From: Paenibacillus swuensis
GTDB taxonomy: Bacteria; Bacillota; Bacilli; Paenibacillales; DY6
DNA length: 64,000 nucleotides
Direction: 5' to 3'
Assembly (NCBI RefSeq): GCF_001644605.1
Contig: NZ_CP011388.1
Coordinates: 4,693,501-4,757,500 of the forward strand
Under the pieces are notes generated by a model that had not been told where the DNA came from, ran no database searches, and saw only the letters and a list, made by a program, of their open reading frames with translations. The position numbers and the translations under genes were made by a program. Shown here in pieces: positions 12,409 to 62,282 of the stretch. Position 1 is the first letter of the stretch; each line of letters opens with the position of its first letter.

Positions 12409-13863
12409 TTAGTTCACTTTGATGACATTATAATGCTTTTCTTGAACTTCCTTAGCCGCGGCATCCAATTCCGCTTTGAAATCTACGCCTTTCTTGGAGA
12501 AGATCTTCTGAATCACATTCGTCATGGCGGCATAATACTCTTGTGTGTTATATTGCGCTTCAGGCTTTGCGTCTCCCAAACTATTGGATTCGGCGTTGTA
12601 TTTATATACGTTGTCGTATTTAGCGAATATGGCTTCTGCTTTCTGTCCGTATTCCGAATCTTGACTATAATAGTTAATATGAGGCGGAATAAAGAACTTT
12701 CCTTCGGTTTTACGAGCTTGAATGTCCTTCTCCACAGAGGTTAACCAGTCTTCGGAGAAGTAATCGAATGTGATGTAACGAAATGCCATTTCCTGTTCAT
12801 CCTTCGTGGCGTTCGGGTTGATTACCATATAATCCCCGCCAAGGATACCATAGTGCTTCCCGCCCTTTTCCATAGCCGGGATCGGATAGGTCAACACTTC
12901 ATCCGGTTTAAGCCCGCCTTGGTTCAACGCCTGTTCCAGCACGCCTTCCGCGCCGGCAATAACCATACCTGTGCGTCCTTGGGCGAACGCGCCTACCGCG
13001 TCTCCCCAGCCTAAAGCCCAGTCTTGCGGGATCGCATCCGCTTCCCATCTAAGTTTGTTGTAGAATTCGGCAGCCTTTACAGCGGCATCGGAATTGAATG
13101 CGGCCGTAACTTTGCCGCCTTCCACCGTTTGAATCTCGCCGCCCGCGCCGAAGAGGAAATTCGTCCAGTTCCAGCCGGACTCATTGCCTTTACCCATGGG
13201 CGCGACTCCCGCAATTCCTTTCTTCTTGTCGGCTACCGCTTTAGCCGTATTCAACATGTCGTCCCAAGTCCAGTCATACGCCGGTACGGCTACCCCTTTA
13301 GCATCCAACATCTTCTTGTTTACGATTGTGGCTGTCGTGTACCCTTTTTGCGGTACACCGAACATTTTGCCGTCGATCAGGAATTGTTTGGACAGGATTG
13401 GATTCAACTGATCTTTAAACTCGTAGCTATCCCACAGCGTTGTAATGTCGGCGGCCCAGCCTTTTTCCGCAAGGAATTTAGCCTCAGTCGCATAGGTGTT
13501 GAAGAACGTCGGTGCCTCGTTGGCGGCCATCTTGATACCGATTTCGTTCACATTATAATGCCAGTCCGACTTCTCGACTGTTACGTTCGGATATTTCTCT
13601 GTAAAACGCCGAATTTTATCATCTTCCAATTTGCGGTTTTCCACTTGATCTGGAAGCGGATAATAAATGCTGATTGTAATTTTCTTATCTTCAATTTTCT
13701 CCTCTGCCTCATTCGTCCCGCTATTGGTGTTCTCTGTTTTCGGTGCCTCGGTATTGCCCGTGTTGCCTTTGTTGCCGTTATTGCTGTTATTCCCTCCGCT
13801 ACAGGCGGCAAGCACCAGACTGCATGCGAGTAAGCACAGGATGACAATCGACCATTTACGCAT
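12409..13863 (-). CDS. Sugar ABC transporter substrate-binding lipoprotein (family 1)
   Basis: Membrane-tethered binding protein of a CUT1 importer, 484 residues from the ATG at 13863, which has GGGGAG upstream and starts MRKWSIVILCLLACSLVLAAC. A longer in-frame ATG at 13911 is rejected because it adds 16 polar residues before the signal peptide. The lipobox VLAAC gives a lipidated Cys, followed by a Ser/Gly/Asn/Thr linker (GGNNSNNGNKGNTGNTE) usual for Paenibacillus lipoproteins. The mature part has the family-1 solute-binding pattern (YPNVTVEKSDW, FGVPQKGY, WTWDDMLNTAKA, FAQGRTGMVIAG). Two permeases and a kinase/regulator pair lie upstream on the same strand. The substrate cannot be read from the sequence. 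Confidence 0.94.
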   Translation of the reverse strand: MRKWSIVILCLLACSLVLAACSGGNNSNNGNKGNTGNTEAPKTENTNSGTNEAEEKIEDKKITISIYYPLPDQVENRKLEDDKIRRFTEKYPNVTVEKSDWHYNVNEIGIKMAANEAPTFFNTYATEAKFLAEKGWAADITTLWDSYEFKDQLNPILSKQFLIDGKMFGVPQKGYTTATIVNKKMLDAKGVAVPAYDWTWDDMLNTAKAVADKKKGIAGVAPMGKGNESGWNWTNFLFGAGGEIQTVEGGKVTAAFNSDAAVKAAEFYNKLRWEADAIPQDWALGWGDAVGAFAQGRTGMVIAGAEGVLEQALNQGGLKPDEVLTYPIPAMEKGGKHYGILGGDYMVINPNATKDEQEMAFRYITFDYFSEDWLTSVEKDIQARKTEGKFFIPPHINYYSQDSEYGQKAEAIFAKYDNVYKYNAESNSLGDAKPEAQYNTQEYYAAMTNVIQKIFSKKGVDFKAELDAAAKEVQEKHYNVIKVN

Positions 13864-56949: not shown

Positions 56950-59367
56950 TCAATCTGACGCGGTCTCATACACATCCGGATGCAACGCATGAACAAACGG
57001 CGACCATTCGCCAGTCGAATACAGATAAAGTCGATGCATCGCCCGCGTACATGCTGTGTAAAGAAGCTTCCGTTCGTTGTCTCGACCATAAGCTTCGGGC
57101 GATGCATCATAGATTAAGACCGCATCGAATTCAATACCCTTTGCGAGATACACGGGAATGATCATGACTCCTTTTTCAAAGTCCTTTGTTTCCTTTGTAA
57201 CAAGCTGCAGTGCTTCGCTTCCCTGAGTTCGCACTGATTCATAGGCCTCTCTGCTTTCGGCCGCGGTCTTCGTAATGACAGCGATGGATTCGAAGCCCTC
57301 AGCCCTGAGCGCCGCGATATCGACAAGAATGCGCGCATCGCGCTTTGACCCGCTGGCTATTCTCCTCAGCAGCGGCTTATGCCCCTCCCTGTCAAATGGT
57401 GCGATCTCTCCCCCGTCCGGAAGCATGCCCTTCGTAAATTCAACAATTTCTCTGGTTGAACGATAACTGCGCATAAGGCGAATCAGGCTTGTTTCCGCTT
57501 CGCCGTAAAGTCGGATGATCGGCGAATCGGTTGCAGACAGATTGGTGGCTTGCATGAAGATCGCTTGCCCGAAATCGCCGAGCACCGTCATCCGCGCACG
57601 AGGAAACAGCTTCTTCATATATTCATATTGAAACGAAGAATAGTCCTGTCCCTCATCGACGAAGACATGCCGAATCTCTGTGTTCGTGCGGACGCCCTCA
57701 ATTAATTCTTTGAGATATAAATACGGTGTCGCGTCTTCGTGGAACAGCTTGTTGCTGAGCAGCGTTTCCTTGGTTTGTCTGCATATTTCCGGCCAGAGCC
57801 CAGGGACGTCGACCCCGTTCGTTTGCTCCCGATAAGCAACTTCGTCAACAAACAATTGGCCATAAATGCTTTTGACATCTACAAACGAGAATTTCTTTAC
57901 ACTTTTCCTAAGCGGTTTGAAATGTTCTTTCACAATCCTTCGGAGGAGTAAGTCTTCCTCTCTCAGGCCGAAGTCAAAGTCGCTTTCATCTCCCCTGCGC
58001 TTGTTGTTCATTTTCTCGCGAACGGAGGCGTAAAGCTCCGCAAGATCCAATAACTCTGACTCTTTATGAAGCTCCCCGAAAGCTTCCGCATATTCATCGG
58101 TATCCAGATAGTTGAGTTCTTCCTGCACCCAGGACGCATCGCGTTCCGCGCGTTCCAGCTTGGTCAATTCGTCCAGCAGCCATTCCTGCAGCTGAGATAT
58201 CCGATGATTCAACGGCAGAGTACGTTCATAACTGTAGAATTCGTCGCGCATTCGCTTAACGCTGATCAACTCGCGATCTCGAAATTGAATGCTGTTAAAT
58301 CGCATACCCTCCCGCCCCAACCATAGGCCATAGTTCTGCAGCGCAAGCAGGAACTCCTCGGAAGCTTTATACTCAATCCCCTGAACACGAGCCTCATATC
58401 CCGACGTTCCTTGTTCGGTCAGCACATACTCCGTCTGATCAAAAATATCCTCAGGGCGCAACGTGGACCCCAGCCAATAGTCCAGATATTCCTGAAACGT
58501 CGTCTGCTGCATATTTTCTTCGCCAAGCTCCGGCAGAACGGTAGAGATATAACTTACAAACATCGGATTCGGCGAGAAGAGAATAATCTGATCCGCCCTG
58601 ATCGACTGTCGGTTTTTGTACAACAAATACGCAACCCGTTGCAACGCTGCGGAAGTTTTACCGCTGCCTGCAGCTCCCTGTACGATAAGCATTCGGCTAT
58701 GATCATTACGGATAATGGCATTTTGTTCCTTCTGGATGGTGGACACGATACTCTTCATTTGCGAGTTCGCGCCTTGGCCAAGCACTTGCTGCAACAATTC
58801 GTCTCCAATCGTTTCGCTCGCGTCAAACATATTAACAATGCGCCCGTCATGAATTTGAAACTGCCGTTTAAGCTCCATCCTTCCGTCGATTCGTCCGGAC
58901 GGTGTATCATATGAAGCCGGTCCGGGTGAATAGTCGTAGTACAGACTGGCAATCGGTGTGCGCCAGTCGTAGATCAGAAAGCTTAATTCGTCTTCGTCGA
59001 CGAAGGATGATACACCGATATAAACTCGCTCACTATGCTCTGTACCTTCCTCCAGAAAGTCAATACGCCCGAAATAAGGAGACGGGAGCAGACGGTTCAT
59101 GCTTTTCCAGCGTTGTATCATTTGCTTTTGGACGCGTTCCCGTTCGGCCAACATCGCGGATTGCTGTTGTACAGAGTAAAAGGTATCTTCGAAATCATCC
59201 GTGGTAGCCGTATTAATCGTCAGATCTTCCCAGAACCGCTTGCGGATTTCCGCAGCCTGATCTCGCAGTCCAGCAACCTCCGGCTCAAGTTTATCCATAC
59301 TCGCCTGCAGTTTGTTTCGAACCTGATCAAGCCGATCTTGTTCTAGCACCCATTCCTTTTCTTCCAT
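56950..59367 (-). CDS. helD: HelD-like RNA polymerase-associated ATPase (UvrD-type helicase fold)
   Basis: An 805-residue cytoplasmic protein. It has an N-terminal coiled coil (DQVRNKLQASMDKLEPEVAG) that in HelD enters the polymerase secondary channel, a domain with FLIYDWRTPIASLYYDYSPG, Walker A QGAAGSGKTSAALQR (about residue 234), Walker B region VFVDEGQDYSSFQYEYMKKL and GDFGQAIF. HelD releases stalled polymerase from DNA and can oppose rifampicin in some bacteria. The ATG at 59367 lies 15 bases after AAGGAG; a GTG at 59382 overlaps that site and is rejected, and TTG 59370 is possible. The leader carries a strong minus-strand promoter and a long inverted repeat. Confidence 0.9.
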   Translation of the reverse strand: MEEKEWVLEQDRLDQVRNKLQASMDKLEPEVAGLRDQAAEIRKRFWEDLTINTATTDDFEDTFYSVQQQSAMLAERERVQKQMIQRWKSMNRLLPSPYFGRIDFLEEGTEHSERVYIGVSSFVDEDELSFLIYDWRTPIASLYYDYSPGPASYDTPSGRIDGRMELKRQFQIHDGRIVNMFDASETIGDELLQQVLGQGANSQMKSIVSTIQKEQNAIIRNDHSRMLIVQGAAGSGKTSAALQRVAYLLYKNRQSIRADQIILFSPNPMFVSYISTVLPELGEENMQQTTFQEYLDYWLGSTLRPEDIFDQTEYVLTEQGTSGYEARVQGIEYKASEEFLLALQNYGLWLGREGMRFNSIQFRDRELISVKRMRDEFYSYERTLPLNHRISQLQEWLLDELTKLERAERDASWVQEELNYLDTDEYAEAFGELHKESELLDLAELYASVREKMNNKRRGDESDFDFGLREEDLLLRRIVKEHFKPLRKSVKKFSFVDVKSIYGQLFVDEVAYREQTNGVDVPGLWPEICRQTKETLLSNKLFHEDATPYLYLKELIEGVRTNTEIRHVFVDEGQDYSSFQYEYMKKLFPRARMTVLGDFGQAIFMQATNLSATDSPIIRLYGEAETSLIRLMRSYRSTREIVEFTKGMLPDGGEIAPFDREGHKPLLRRIASGSKRDARILVDIAALRAEGFESIAVITKTAAESREAYESVRTQGSEALQLVTKETKDFEKGVMIIPVYLAKGIEFDAVLIYDASPEAYGRDNERKLLYTACTRAMHRLYLYSTGEWSPFVHALHPDVYETASD

Positions 59368-59411
59368 CAATACCGAACACACTCCTTTTTATTTTTCGGA
59401 TAAAAAAAGAG

Positions 59412-59527
59412 CATTGACAAATCAACCTTTCGGATGTACAATAAAATTAGGATAGAATTGCAACGAACCTAATAATTAATTTGTCAATGACGCTACTGAT
59501 TATATCACAGCGTTTTTTGTTATTCAA
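59412..59527. promoter_or_regulatory. Convergent promoters and 11-bp inverted repeat in the helD leader
   Basis: Minus strand: TTGAAT (59522-59527), 17 bp, TATAAT (59499-59504) with TG one base before the -10, reading toward helD. Plus strand: TTGACA (59414-59419), 17 bp, TACAAT (59437-59442), reading the opposite way into the same segment. CATTGACAAAT (59412-59422) and ATTTGTCAATG (59479-59489) are exact inverted repeats; in the helD transcript they form a stem followed by CTCTTTTTTT, a possible attenuator. The plus transcript meets ACGCT...AGCGTTTTTT (59490-59517), a weak terminator-like end. Confidence 0.65.
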
Positions 59528-59602
59528 TTTATTTTTAAATATATGTACAAACGATGATTCTCCATTTTATTTTGGGGGATCATTTTTTAAATTCACCAAA
59601 TT

Positions 59603-59645
59603 TTCACAACGGTTGTGAACTATTTCACATACTTTCCTGTATGAT
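59603..59645 (+). promoter_or_regulatory. Rex-type operator upstream of the cyd operon
   Basis: TTGTGAACTATTTCACAT (59613-59630) matches the Rex consensus TTGTGAA-N4-TTCACAA except for the last base. A further TTCACAA (59603-59609) makes a second inverted pair with TTGTGAA across CGG. A -10-like TATGAT is at 59640-59645. Rex represses cydABCD in Bacillota when NADH is low. Confidence 0.78.
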
Positions 59646-59741: not shown

Positions 59742-59861
59742 ATGGACCAAGATTCGAACGACAGCAACCGCCGTATTCGCAAACAGGAGAAAACCTTATT
59801 CATTGTATGTATCGCAGTGGCGGTCATTATGCTCCTGTCTGTGTTACGCAGAATATTCTAA
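59742..59861 (+). CDS. Small membrane protein (39 residues) preceding cydA
   Basis: ATG 59742 follows CAGGTGAGCTC. The peptide has a charged cytoplasmic start (MDQDSNDSNRRIRKQEK) and a single membrane helix (TLFIVCIAVAVIMLLSVLRR), ending IF. It is not in standard size-filtered gene calls. It lies between the Rex site and cydA, 49 bases before the cydA start, in the same direction, so it should be on the cyd transcript. I do not recognise it. It could be an accessory bd-oxidase peptide or a translated leader. Confidence 0.6.
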   Translation: MDQDSNDSNRRIRKQEKTLFIVCIAVAVIMLLSVLRRIF

Positions 59862-59910
59862 ACCCGTCTAAATCATGATTTCCGTACCAAAAAAGGGAGT
59901 TGACCGCAAC

Positions 59911-61257
59911 ATGCCGCAATACGATCCGGCCGTCTACAGCCGCATCCTGACGAGCCTTACGCTCGGGTTTCACATCATCTTCGCCACCATCGGCGTCGGC
60001 GTTCCGCTGATGATCGCGCTCGCCGAATGGATGGGGATCAAGCGTAACGATCCCCACTACACCTTACTCGCCCGCCGCTGGGCGCGCGGCTTCGTCATTA
60101 CCGTCGCTGTCGGTGTCGTCACCGGCACCTCCATCGGGATTCAGCTCAGCCTCCTGTGGCCGAGCTTTATGCGCATCGCGGGGCAAGCGATCGCCTTGCC
60201 CCTGTTCATGGAGACGTTCGCCTTCTTCGTTGAGGCGATATTCTTGGGCATCTATCTCTATACCTGGGATCGATTCAAGAAACCGATCTATCATTTCTGG
60301 TTGAGCATTCCCATCATTCTGGGTTCTTCGGGCTCCGCCATGTTTATCACCATGATGAACTCGTTTATGAACGCGCCCGCGGGCTTTACGCTGGAGGACG
60401 GCAAGATTACCAACATTCAACCCATCCTGGCGATGCTTAACCCGGCTACGCCCACGAAGGTGTCGCATGTGCTGTTCTCCGCCTACTTGACCTGTGCTTT
60501 CATTCTGGCCGGGATTGCCGCCTATTCCATTCTCAAGGGACGCAAGCACGTTTACTATAAGAAGGCGCTGAAGCTCACCATGACCACTGGCCTGATCTTC
60601 GCGATCGGCACAGCCGTAGTCGGCGACTTGTCAGGTAAATATCTGGCCGAATATCAACCGGAGAAGCTGGCTGCCGCGGAGTGGCATTTTGAAACCATCG
60701 AGAAAGCGCCTTTAATTCTGGGCGGGATTCTCACGGAGGACAATGAAGTGAAATTCGGGCTCCAAATCCCTTACGCTCTCTCCATTCTGGCACATGGGAC
60801 GCCCAATGCTGTCGTGAAAGGACTGAATGAATACAAAGCCGAGGATTTGCCGCCCTTATATATCCATTACCTGTTCGACGCGATGGTCGCCATCGGCATG
60901 TTCCTGATGCTGCTGACCCTGCTGTACTTCATCCTGCGGAAATGGCGCAAAGGCAATCCGCATCACAGGCTGCTCCTGTGGGCGATCGTCATCGCAGCCC
61001 CGCTGTCCGTCTTCGCGATTGAATTCGGCTGGGTATTCTCCGAAGTCGGCCGTCAGCCGTGGATCCTTCGCGGATTCATGCGAACCAACGAGGGAGCCAC
61101 CACTTCCGAACATGTCGACATCATGCTTTACCTGTTCTTGCTTTTATATCTCGTGCTGGGCATCGCGGTGAGCCGTGTGCTGCGGACCCTGTTCCGTAAC
61201 AATCCCGCTGAAGCCGAACTGCTCGCGCTTGAGGATTCGGGGGCGGATAAACGATGA
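59911..61257 (+). CDS. cydA: Cytochrome bd quinol oxidase subunit I
   Basis: A 448-residue membrane protein from ATG 59911 (MPQYDPAVYSRILTSLTLGF), 11 bases after GGGAG; an in-frame ATG at 59875 adds 12 residues and lacks a ribosome site. Heme-ligand regions are visible: His in FHIIFATIGVG, His in KVSHVLFSAYL, and GWVFSEVGRQPW with the hallmark GRQPW. The quinol-loop motif QPEKLAAAE is intact and the Q-loop is short, as in Geobacillus-type enzymes. It reduces O2 to water with quinol. Third-base G/C is visibly high compared with the ars genes. Confidence 0.96.
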   Translation: MPQYDPAVYSRILTSLTLGFHIIFATIGVGVPLMIALAEWMGIKRNDPHYTLLARRWARGFVITVAVGVVTGTSIGIQLSLLWPSFMRIAGQAIALPLFMETFAFFVEAIFLGIYLYTWDRFKKPIYHFWLSIPIILGSSGSAMFITMMNSFMNAPAGFTLEDGKITNIQPILAMLNPATPTKVSHVLFSAYLTCAFILAGIAAYSILKGRKHVYYKKALKLTMTTGLIFAIGTAVVGDLSGKYLAEYQPEKLAAAEWHFETIEKAPLILGGILTEDNEVKFGLQIPYALSILAHGTPNAVVKGLNEYKAEDLPPLYIHYLFDAMVAIGMFLMLLTLLYFILRKWRKGNPHHRLLLWAIVIAAPLSVFAIEFGWVFSEVGRQPWILRGFMRTNEGATTSEHVDIMLYLFLLLYLVLGIAVSRVLRTLFRNNPAEAELLALEDSGADKR

Positions 61258-62282
61258 GCTATGAACTTTTAGGTATCACGGTCTTATGGACCTTTTTGTA
61301 CGGCTACCTGATTGTGGCCTCTGTGGACTTCGGCGCCGGTTTCTTCAGTTACTATAGCGAGTTGACCGGCAAGAAGAACGTCATCCACCATATCATCCAG
61401 CGTTATTTGTCTCCGGTATGGGAAGTAACCAATGTCTTTCTCATCTTCTTCATGGTGGGTATTGTCGGCTTCTTTCCGGACACGGCCTATTATTACGGAA
61501 CGGCTTTGCTGATTCCGGGCAGTGTCGCTATCATTCTGTTGGCCATTCGGGGCTCTTACTACGCTTTCGCGAACTACGGTTCGAAGAAAGACAACCGGTT
61601 CTATCTGTTCCTTTATGGCGCGACCGGTTTATTGATTCCTGCTTCCTTATCCACCGTGCTGACCTTGTCGGAAGGCGGATTTATTGAGGAACGAGGCAAT
61701 AAAGTCATCTTTTTGTACGAAAAATTGTTCACCAGCTCCTACTCCTGGTCCGTCGTTCTGCTTGCGATTGTCAGTGTGTTGTATATCTCAGCTGTGTTCC
61801 TGACGTATTATGCCAGCCGGGCGAATGACGGTGCGGCTTTACAACTCCTGCGCCGATACGCGCTCGGTTGGAGCATGCCGACAATTCTCTCCTCCATGCT
61901 GGTGTTCTTTGCGATTTCGCGGCATAACCCGGTGCATTTTGAACGTATGGTGGATCTGTTTTGGATGTTTGCGCTATCCTTTATCTGTTTCGCGGTTGCC
62001 GTTTATCTCGTATGGACACGCAAAGCTTACGGGCTGGCGTTCGTGTTCGTGATGCTTCAATTCGCATTCGCTTTCTTCGGTTACGGGGCCGCGCATATGC
62101 CGCATATTCTGTACCCTTACTTAACGATTTATGATAACTTCACGAACGATACGATGGCCGTCGCGCTTATTGTCGTATTCATTCTCGGATTATTGGTGCT
62201 CATTCCATCCCTGGCATTACTCATGCGATTGTTCCTGTTTGATGCCAAATATGTGCAAGGACAGACCAAGCCTGCCAAGTAA
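61254..62282 (+). CDS. cydB: Cytochrome bd quinol oxidase subunit II
   Basis: A 342-residue membrane protein overlapping the cydA stop by four bases. It starts SYELLGITVLWTFLYGYLIV and contains SVDFGAGFFSYY and PVWEVTNVFLIFFMVGIVGF, the usual CydB/CioB segments. It pairs with CydA. cydCD genes are not in the window. Confidence 0.95.
   Translation: MSYELLGITVLWTFLYGYLIVASVDFGAGFFSYYSELTGKKNVIHHIIQRYLSPVWEVTNVFLIFFMVGIVGFFPDTAYYYGTALLIPGSVAIILLAIRGSYYAFANYGSKKDNRFYLFLYGATGLLIPASLSTVLTLSEGGFIEERGNKVIFLYEKLFTSSYSWSVVLLAIVSVLYISAVFLTYYASRANDGAALQLLRRYALGWSMPTILSSMLVFFAISRHNPVHFERMVDLFWMFALSFICFAVAVYLVWTRKAYGLAFVFVMLQFAFAFFGYGAAHMPHILYPYLTIYDNFTNDTMAVALIVVFILGLLVLIPSLALLMRLFLFDAKYVQGQTKPAK

Follow-up and report, generated by a model that had tools for sequence, protein, structure and literature searches.

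Why should the gene for an RNA polymerase recycling and protection factor be preceded by two promoters that read towards each other? The window, by which we mean the whole 64-kb stretch of Paenibacillus swuensis DNA that was analysed, carries helD on the minus strand at 56950–59367, with the ATG at 59367. The product is a class I HelD: it scores 1071.6 bits against NF041464 HelD_BACSU (cut-off 419) and matches the solved B. subtilis HelD chain 6wvk_H over its full length (E=2.5e-221). Where B. subtilis HelD has D56, D57 and E60, the window protein has DDFED, which is shifted by two to three residues when the proteins are aligned without gaps.

In B. subtilis, convergent promoters with starts 39 bp apart precede helD (Sudzinova et al., NAR 2026, gkaf1407; PMC12802891). 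The antisense promoter is several-fold stronger, while the sense promoter PhelD is slow in escape and suppressed by transcriptional interference. At sub-MIC rifampicin, polymerase is arrested at the busier antisense promoter and the interference on PhelD is relieved. Mutation of the antisense −10, a promoter swap, a shorter distance or a rifampicin-resistant polymerase abolishes the regulation. The same arrangement stands before pps, and a motif search found it before 18,798 genes (PMC12802891).

We consider it highly probable (about 0.87) that the window holds a rifampicin alarm built on two promoters, as known from B. subtilis helD and pps, which by analogy would operate in P. swuensis as well. 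Below we describe how it is laid out, how widely it is conserved and which other rifampicin-defence genes it precedes. The initial annotation of this locus had suggested that drug-bound polymerase is sensed by polymerase interference. This mechanism is proven for B. subtilis helD and pps, and the window has the same anatomy; the idea was thus right in outline, but it is not new because the B. subtilis mechanism has already been published (PMC12802891). It is important that an antibiotic-sensing circuit without a sensor protein was recovered independently from raw sequence. What the window adds to the known mechanism is a well-supported and well-conserved Paenibacillus-type case with a clade-specific terminator layout.

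A convergent promoter pair in the helD leader

The sense promoter PhelD (59499–59527, minus) consists of a −35 TTGAAT (59527–59522) and a −10 TATAAT (59504–59499) with a spacer of 17 bp. Its predicted start is at about 59493, which gives a helD leader of about 126 nt as compared to 98 nt in B. subtilis. The antisense promoter Panti-helD (59414–59442, plus) has TTGACA (59414–59419) and TACAAT (59437–59442), also 17 bp apart, and a predicted start at 59449/59450. The distance between the two −10 elements is 56 bp, the predicted starts are about 44 bp apart and the pair sits about 130 bp before helD. All these elements had been located correctly before, including the 17-bp spacers and the 56-bp distance; the extended TG motif (TGA) upstream of the PhelD −10 had been overlooked. 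Panti combines a perfect −35 with an A-tract immediately upstream (59402–59408, plus), which in the helD mRNA is a run of seven Ts and is found as a T-run in both leader clades described below. One further TTGACA (59487–59482, minus) was considered as part of a second helD promoter and rejected, as inspection by eye found no −10 at 16–18 bp. An Rfam scan of the entire 64-kb window gave no match.

A pair of this quality is not readily produced by chance. Specifically, a scoring scan of the window yields two convergent pairs, the best of which is the one in the helD leader (score 22.0). The other, at 13532–13643, lies inside a gene for a sugar ABC substrate-binding protein and is taken as a chance occurrence. 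None of 1500 dinucleotide-preserving shuffles of the 400-nt helD leader reaches a score of at least 22. In 746 kb of related loci only three pairs scoring at least 20 fall outside helD leaders, which contain nearly all pairs of that score.

Conservation of the pair was followed by scanning about 400 nt around the helD start in about 110 loci from relatives and named GTDB genomes. Paired promoters are present in 94 of these leaders, from Paenibacillus, Cohnella, Saccharibacillus, Ferroacidibacillus and Alicyclobacillus; the comparison of related helD leaders that the initial annotation had called for comes out in favour of the pair. The Panti −35 TTGACA is nearly invariant, and the sequence between the two promoters, where antisense RNA and leader overlap, varies strongly. 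The 90 distinct leaders were sorted, by inspection and by a rule, into two clades. Clade A (62 leaders, the window included) has a PhelD −35 of TTGAA and a Panti spacer of mostly 17 bp. In clade B (28 leaders) the PhelD −35 is mostly of the TTGC type, and in most cases Panti combines an extended −10 with a spacer of 18 bp. Both promoters are retained in clade B, where the two palindromes discussed below are missing.

The window pair agrees with the rules used for genome searches across species (−35/−10 spacing of 16–20 bp, 45–100 bp between promoters, at most 300 bp upstream of the gene; PMC12802891): its spacers are 17 and 17 bp, 56 bp separate the −10 elements and helD follows after about 130 bp. 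The downstream gene is likewise of the expected kind, being a class I helD where the alternative would be pps/rph. The narrower B. subtilis seed pattern, TTGN3 N17-18 [AT]6 N45-55 [AT]6 N18-19 N3CAA, is not a cross-species definition (PMC12802891); it does not cover the window pair, in which the gap of 56 and the antisense spacer of 17 are each one base outside.

The predicted antisense RNA and its terminator-like hairpin

Transcription from Panti would produce a short RNA antisense to the helD leader. From the positions of promoter and terminator we predict an RNA of about 70–73 nt (59450–59520, plus), and about 74 nt in the sister leaders of clade A. Its 3′ part contains a terminator-like hairpin, ACGCT...AGCGT followed by T6 (59490–59518, plus), with a fold of −8.1 kcal/mol (z −2.6). 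This hairpin, which is absent from the initial annotation, is wrapped around the PhelD −10. In clade A as a whole the inverted repeat around the −10 has the consensus AACGCTAT-GATATAATCG-ATAGCGTT. The PhelD transcript cannot form the hairpin because one half of it is located upstream of the PhelD start. The antisense transcript can, and the U-run that comes next gives the layout of an intrinsic terminator. A terminator near PhelD belongs to the dual-promoter alarm, and in the window this place is taken by the predicted hairpin and T-run.

Several comparisons support the hairpin on the antisense strand. Among 48 relatives, 91% of the hairpin cells are paired on this strand, with covariation, as against at most 53% in all slid controls. 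The outermost pair occurs as AU, GU, CG, GC and UA, and RNAalifold recovers the hairpin. More specifically, at stem pairs 4–9 from the −10, deviations that appear on the helD strand as C-A or A-C, and hence as G-U when read in the antisense RNA, account for 50 cells, versus 7 cells of the opposite kind. The window itself is a weaker example of clade A, since its stem has only 5–6 pairs plus an inner helix and contains two wobbles of opposite type.

A second terminator-like hairpin, also absent from the initial annotation, is found further downstream (59553–59589, plus), and antisense RNA reading through to it would be about 139 nt long. In B. subtilis the antisense RNA is about 90–94 nt long, and in vitro a longer form of about 138 nt is seen as well (PMC12802891), so the distal site of the window resembles the long form in position. 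Because the B. subtilis RNA of 94 nt starts 39 bp from the sense start, its terminator would lie upstream of PhelD. Clade B seems similar in this respect: the 11 leaders examined have a GC-rich terminator upstream of PhelD and antisense RNAs of about 111–133 nt. The shorter predicted antisense RNA of clade A, with its terminator built around the PhelD −10, therefore differs from the B. subtilis form and looks like a variant of the published switch.

Mode of control and alternatives

How would such a pair respond to rifampicin? On the B. subtilis model, Panti-helD would fire often when no drug is present, and the polymerases leaving it would run over the start and −10 of PhelD before stopping at the hairpin located there, so that PhelD is kept off. 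When a small share of polymerase has bound rifampicin, arrest would occur first at Panti, the busier promoter. This would end the interference, and a drug-free polymerase could escape from PhelD, displace the arrested one and transcribe helD, whose product would protect polymerase. How the locus responds to the drug in P. swuensis, how the two promoters compare in strength and where exactly the RNAs end are predictions of this model, and the promoter strength and slow escape that it requires are expected in the window by analogy with B. subtilis.

The features shared with B. subtilis PhelD/Panti-helD are a class I helD, convergent sigma-A promoters in its leader with starts about 40 bp apart, and a short antisense RNA with a predicted intrinsic terminator and a second, distal terminator-like site. 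The 94 of about 110 leaders with the pair, the recovery of rph and DHA2 leaders by a model built from helD leaders, the covariation of the terminator and the B. subtilis mechanism itself all argue for the alarm. Against it count the gap of 56, one base over the 45–55 of the seed pattern, and the 17-bp spacer of Panti without extended −10. B. subtilis Panti has a 19-bp spacer and an extended −10, and the authors thought that this feature might matter (PMC12802891). Asymmetric interference between face-to-face promoters as such is also known from the lysis-lysogeny switch of phage 186 and from Shigella icsA (PMC12802891), which unlike the proposed alarm do not sense a drug by means of arrested polymerase.

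It could also be asked whether the helD leader acts as RNA. The arms CATTGACAAAT (59412–59422), which contains the Panti −35, and ATTTGTCAATG (59479–59489), found just downstream of the predicted PhelD start and in clade A only, form an exact 11-bp inverted repeat bracketing the space between the promoters. In the helD mRNA the repeat is followed by CTC and then by seven Ts, so the repeat and T-run of the initial annotation are indeed present. An exact 11-bp repeat within 80 nt appears in 10 of 2000 shuffles of the AT-rich stretch (0.5%). As a layer added to promoter control, the stem with its U-run could end transcription, hide the ribosome-binding site or protect the 5′ end. The arms extend to a stem of 16 pairs in the window leader (−21.2 kcal/mol, z −4.1), in clade A 88% of main-helix cells are paired and a few double changes occur, wobbles are more frequent in the sense than in the antisense direction (68 versus 29) and clade A leaders fold better than their shuffles (−17.3 versus −9.6). 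The arms are kept in several rph leaders too. Yet the conservation of the repeat stops at clade A: clade B has no stem, the arm match there being 5.0/11 compared with 5.3–5.4 in controls. The T-run is conserved in both clades and the stem in A alone, which makes the T-run independent of the stem. For the helD leaders of both clades RNAalifold yields no consensus structure. In addition, the stem is AU-rich, its loop region is long and a CTC separates the stem from the U-run. As one arm is fixed as the Panti −35, covariation of the repeat is limited in what it can show, and in B. subtilis the interplay of the promoters alone explains the control. Of the attenuator-like stem proposed earlier, the pairing in clade A leaders stands and the link to the T-run appears weaker. 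An A-tract just upstream of a −35 strengthens a promoter through the UP-element effect, and the A-run at 59402–59408 reads better as such a tract of Panti, with a UP-element role that we infer, than as the U-run of an attenuator. Attenuation is not supported over this simpler reading. The leader stem may be real, protecting the mRNA or hiding the ribosome-binding site; overall, leader-RNA control as an added layer appears unlikely.

Other explanations are less probable still. The predicted antisense RNA and the helD 5′ leader have about 44 nt of overlap, and the former could in principle act on the stability or translation of helD mRNA by base pairing. However, the overlap is just the part that varies strongly among relatives, and in B. 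subtilis the control follows the promoter activity of lacZ fusions while the antisense −10 mutation relieves PhelD in vitro too (PMC12802891); together with the effect of a rifampicin-resistant polymerase these results fit promoter interference. Interference in cis explains the control in B. subtilis and a base-pairing regulator, as implied by the antisense RNA of the initial annotation, is unnecessary; we regard it as improbable. Least probable in our opinion, although both palindromes are conserved in clade A and overlap promoter elements, is that the palindromes are sites for a regulator protein. A palindrome of 19 bp, the rifamycin-associated element (RAE) found with actinobacterial helR/rph, has been proposed to bind a regulator in this way (PMC12802891). 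The window resembles it in having a leader palindrome before a rifamycin-defence gene, but a 19-bp palindrome is not found in the 5′ UTR: the arms of the sole exact repeat are 11 bp long and separated by 56 bp, and the imperfect hairpin around the −10 has arms of about 8 bp. Changes in the −10 palindrome preserve pairing of the antisense RNA through G-U, which a DNA site would not need, and clade B has both promoters and neither palindrome. Unlike the RAE, control of the B. subtilis type needs no regulator in B. subtilis, where purified polymerase reproduces the interference (PMC12802891).

The element before other genes

The dual-promoter element is not confined to helD. At E<=1e-5, a sequence-only model built from 47 helD leaders, with no other leaders used, matches 299 of the 399 genomes sampled from the order, about three quarters. 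Among the best 66 places, which were examined, 54 are before helD, 7 before the rifampicin phosphotransferase gene rph and 5 before a gene for a DHA2-family MFS efflux protein (TIGR00711). An earlier search of 61 genomes had matched about 20 rph leaders and one DHA2 leader. Paenibacillaceae rph leaders thus share with B. subtilis Ppps/Panti-pps, which precedes a rifampicin phosphotransferase gene, the same promoter arrangement; the window differs from it in that its downstream gene is helD and the P. swuensis genome has no PPDK_N gene. More specifically, PPDK_N (PF01326) finds no match in this 99.97% complete genome, which therefore contains neither rph nor a PEP synthase/PPDK of the PPDK_N type.

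In the P. swuensis genome the element occurs once at full strength, with one further weak partial match (E=0.004). No convergent-promoter element precedes two other HelD-family genes of this genome (C1:4233422–4235770, L031; 4385740–4387812, L032), and the second class I helD copy is without the element. The same is true of a 62% homolog of the DHA2 pump at 1770366–1771829.

A close DHA2 gene follows 3′ of helD in 18 of the 80 helD loci of named genomes (two of these DHA2 genes are partial), and rph does so in 2 of 80. DHA2 is found downstream of helD in conserved order at L071, L073–L075, L077, L079, L084, L089, L090, L097, L098, L124, L138, L146, L149 and L150, and directly behind the dual-promoter element at L188, L253, L254, L273 and L280. 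In L236 and L245 a decayed helD remnant separates the element from the efflux gene or from rph, which suggests that a helD operon was the source of the element. It seems that the pump was once part of a helD operon and that the element was retained after helD had decayed. The linked DHA2 pump can accordingly be named as a candidate exporter of rifamycins that would belong to the alarm regulon, and the element would then stand before three kinds of likely defence gene: helD, rph and the DHA2 pump.

It is possible, although we would put it slightly below an even chance, that two things hold jointly: that the clade A switch is compacted and self-limiting, its antisense terminator being built round the PhelD −10 so that the transcript stops within the very promoter core that it represses, and that the same element drives the DHA2 pump, alone or together with helD in an operon, which would give rifamycin defence a third arm so far unrecognised. 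If the switch is compacted in this way, a terminating polymerase would pause and dissociate on PhelD, so that occlusion is added to collision, and about 30 bp would have to act both as a promoter and as a terminator for the opposite strand, the two being selected jointly. A terminator embedded in a promoter would bear on how the level of interference is set.

Some further features of the region were noticed. In the helD leader at 59382–59411 (minus), CUCUUUUU can pair with the ribosome-binding site AAAAGGAG (59382–59389, minus) just downstream of it, and 92% of cells pair in clade A; this pairing may simply follow from the sequences of the A-tract and binding site, or it may reflect translational control. 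On the other side of the promoter pair, a Rex-box-like palindrome, TTGTGAACTATTTCACA (59613–59629), is located upstream of cydAB-like genes (59875–62282, plus). Directly before the gene for cytochrome bd subunit I there is a 39-aa open reading frame (59742–59861, plus) with one hydrophobic stretch, the product of which could be a small oxidase subunit.
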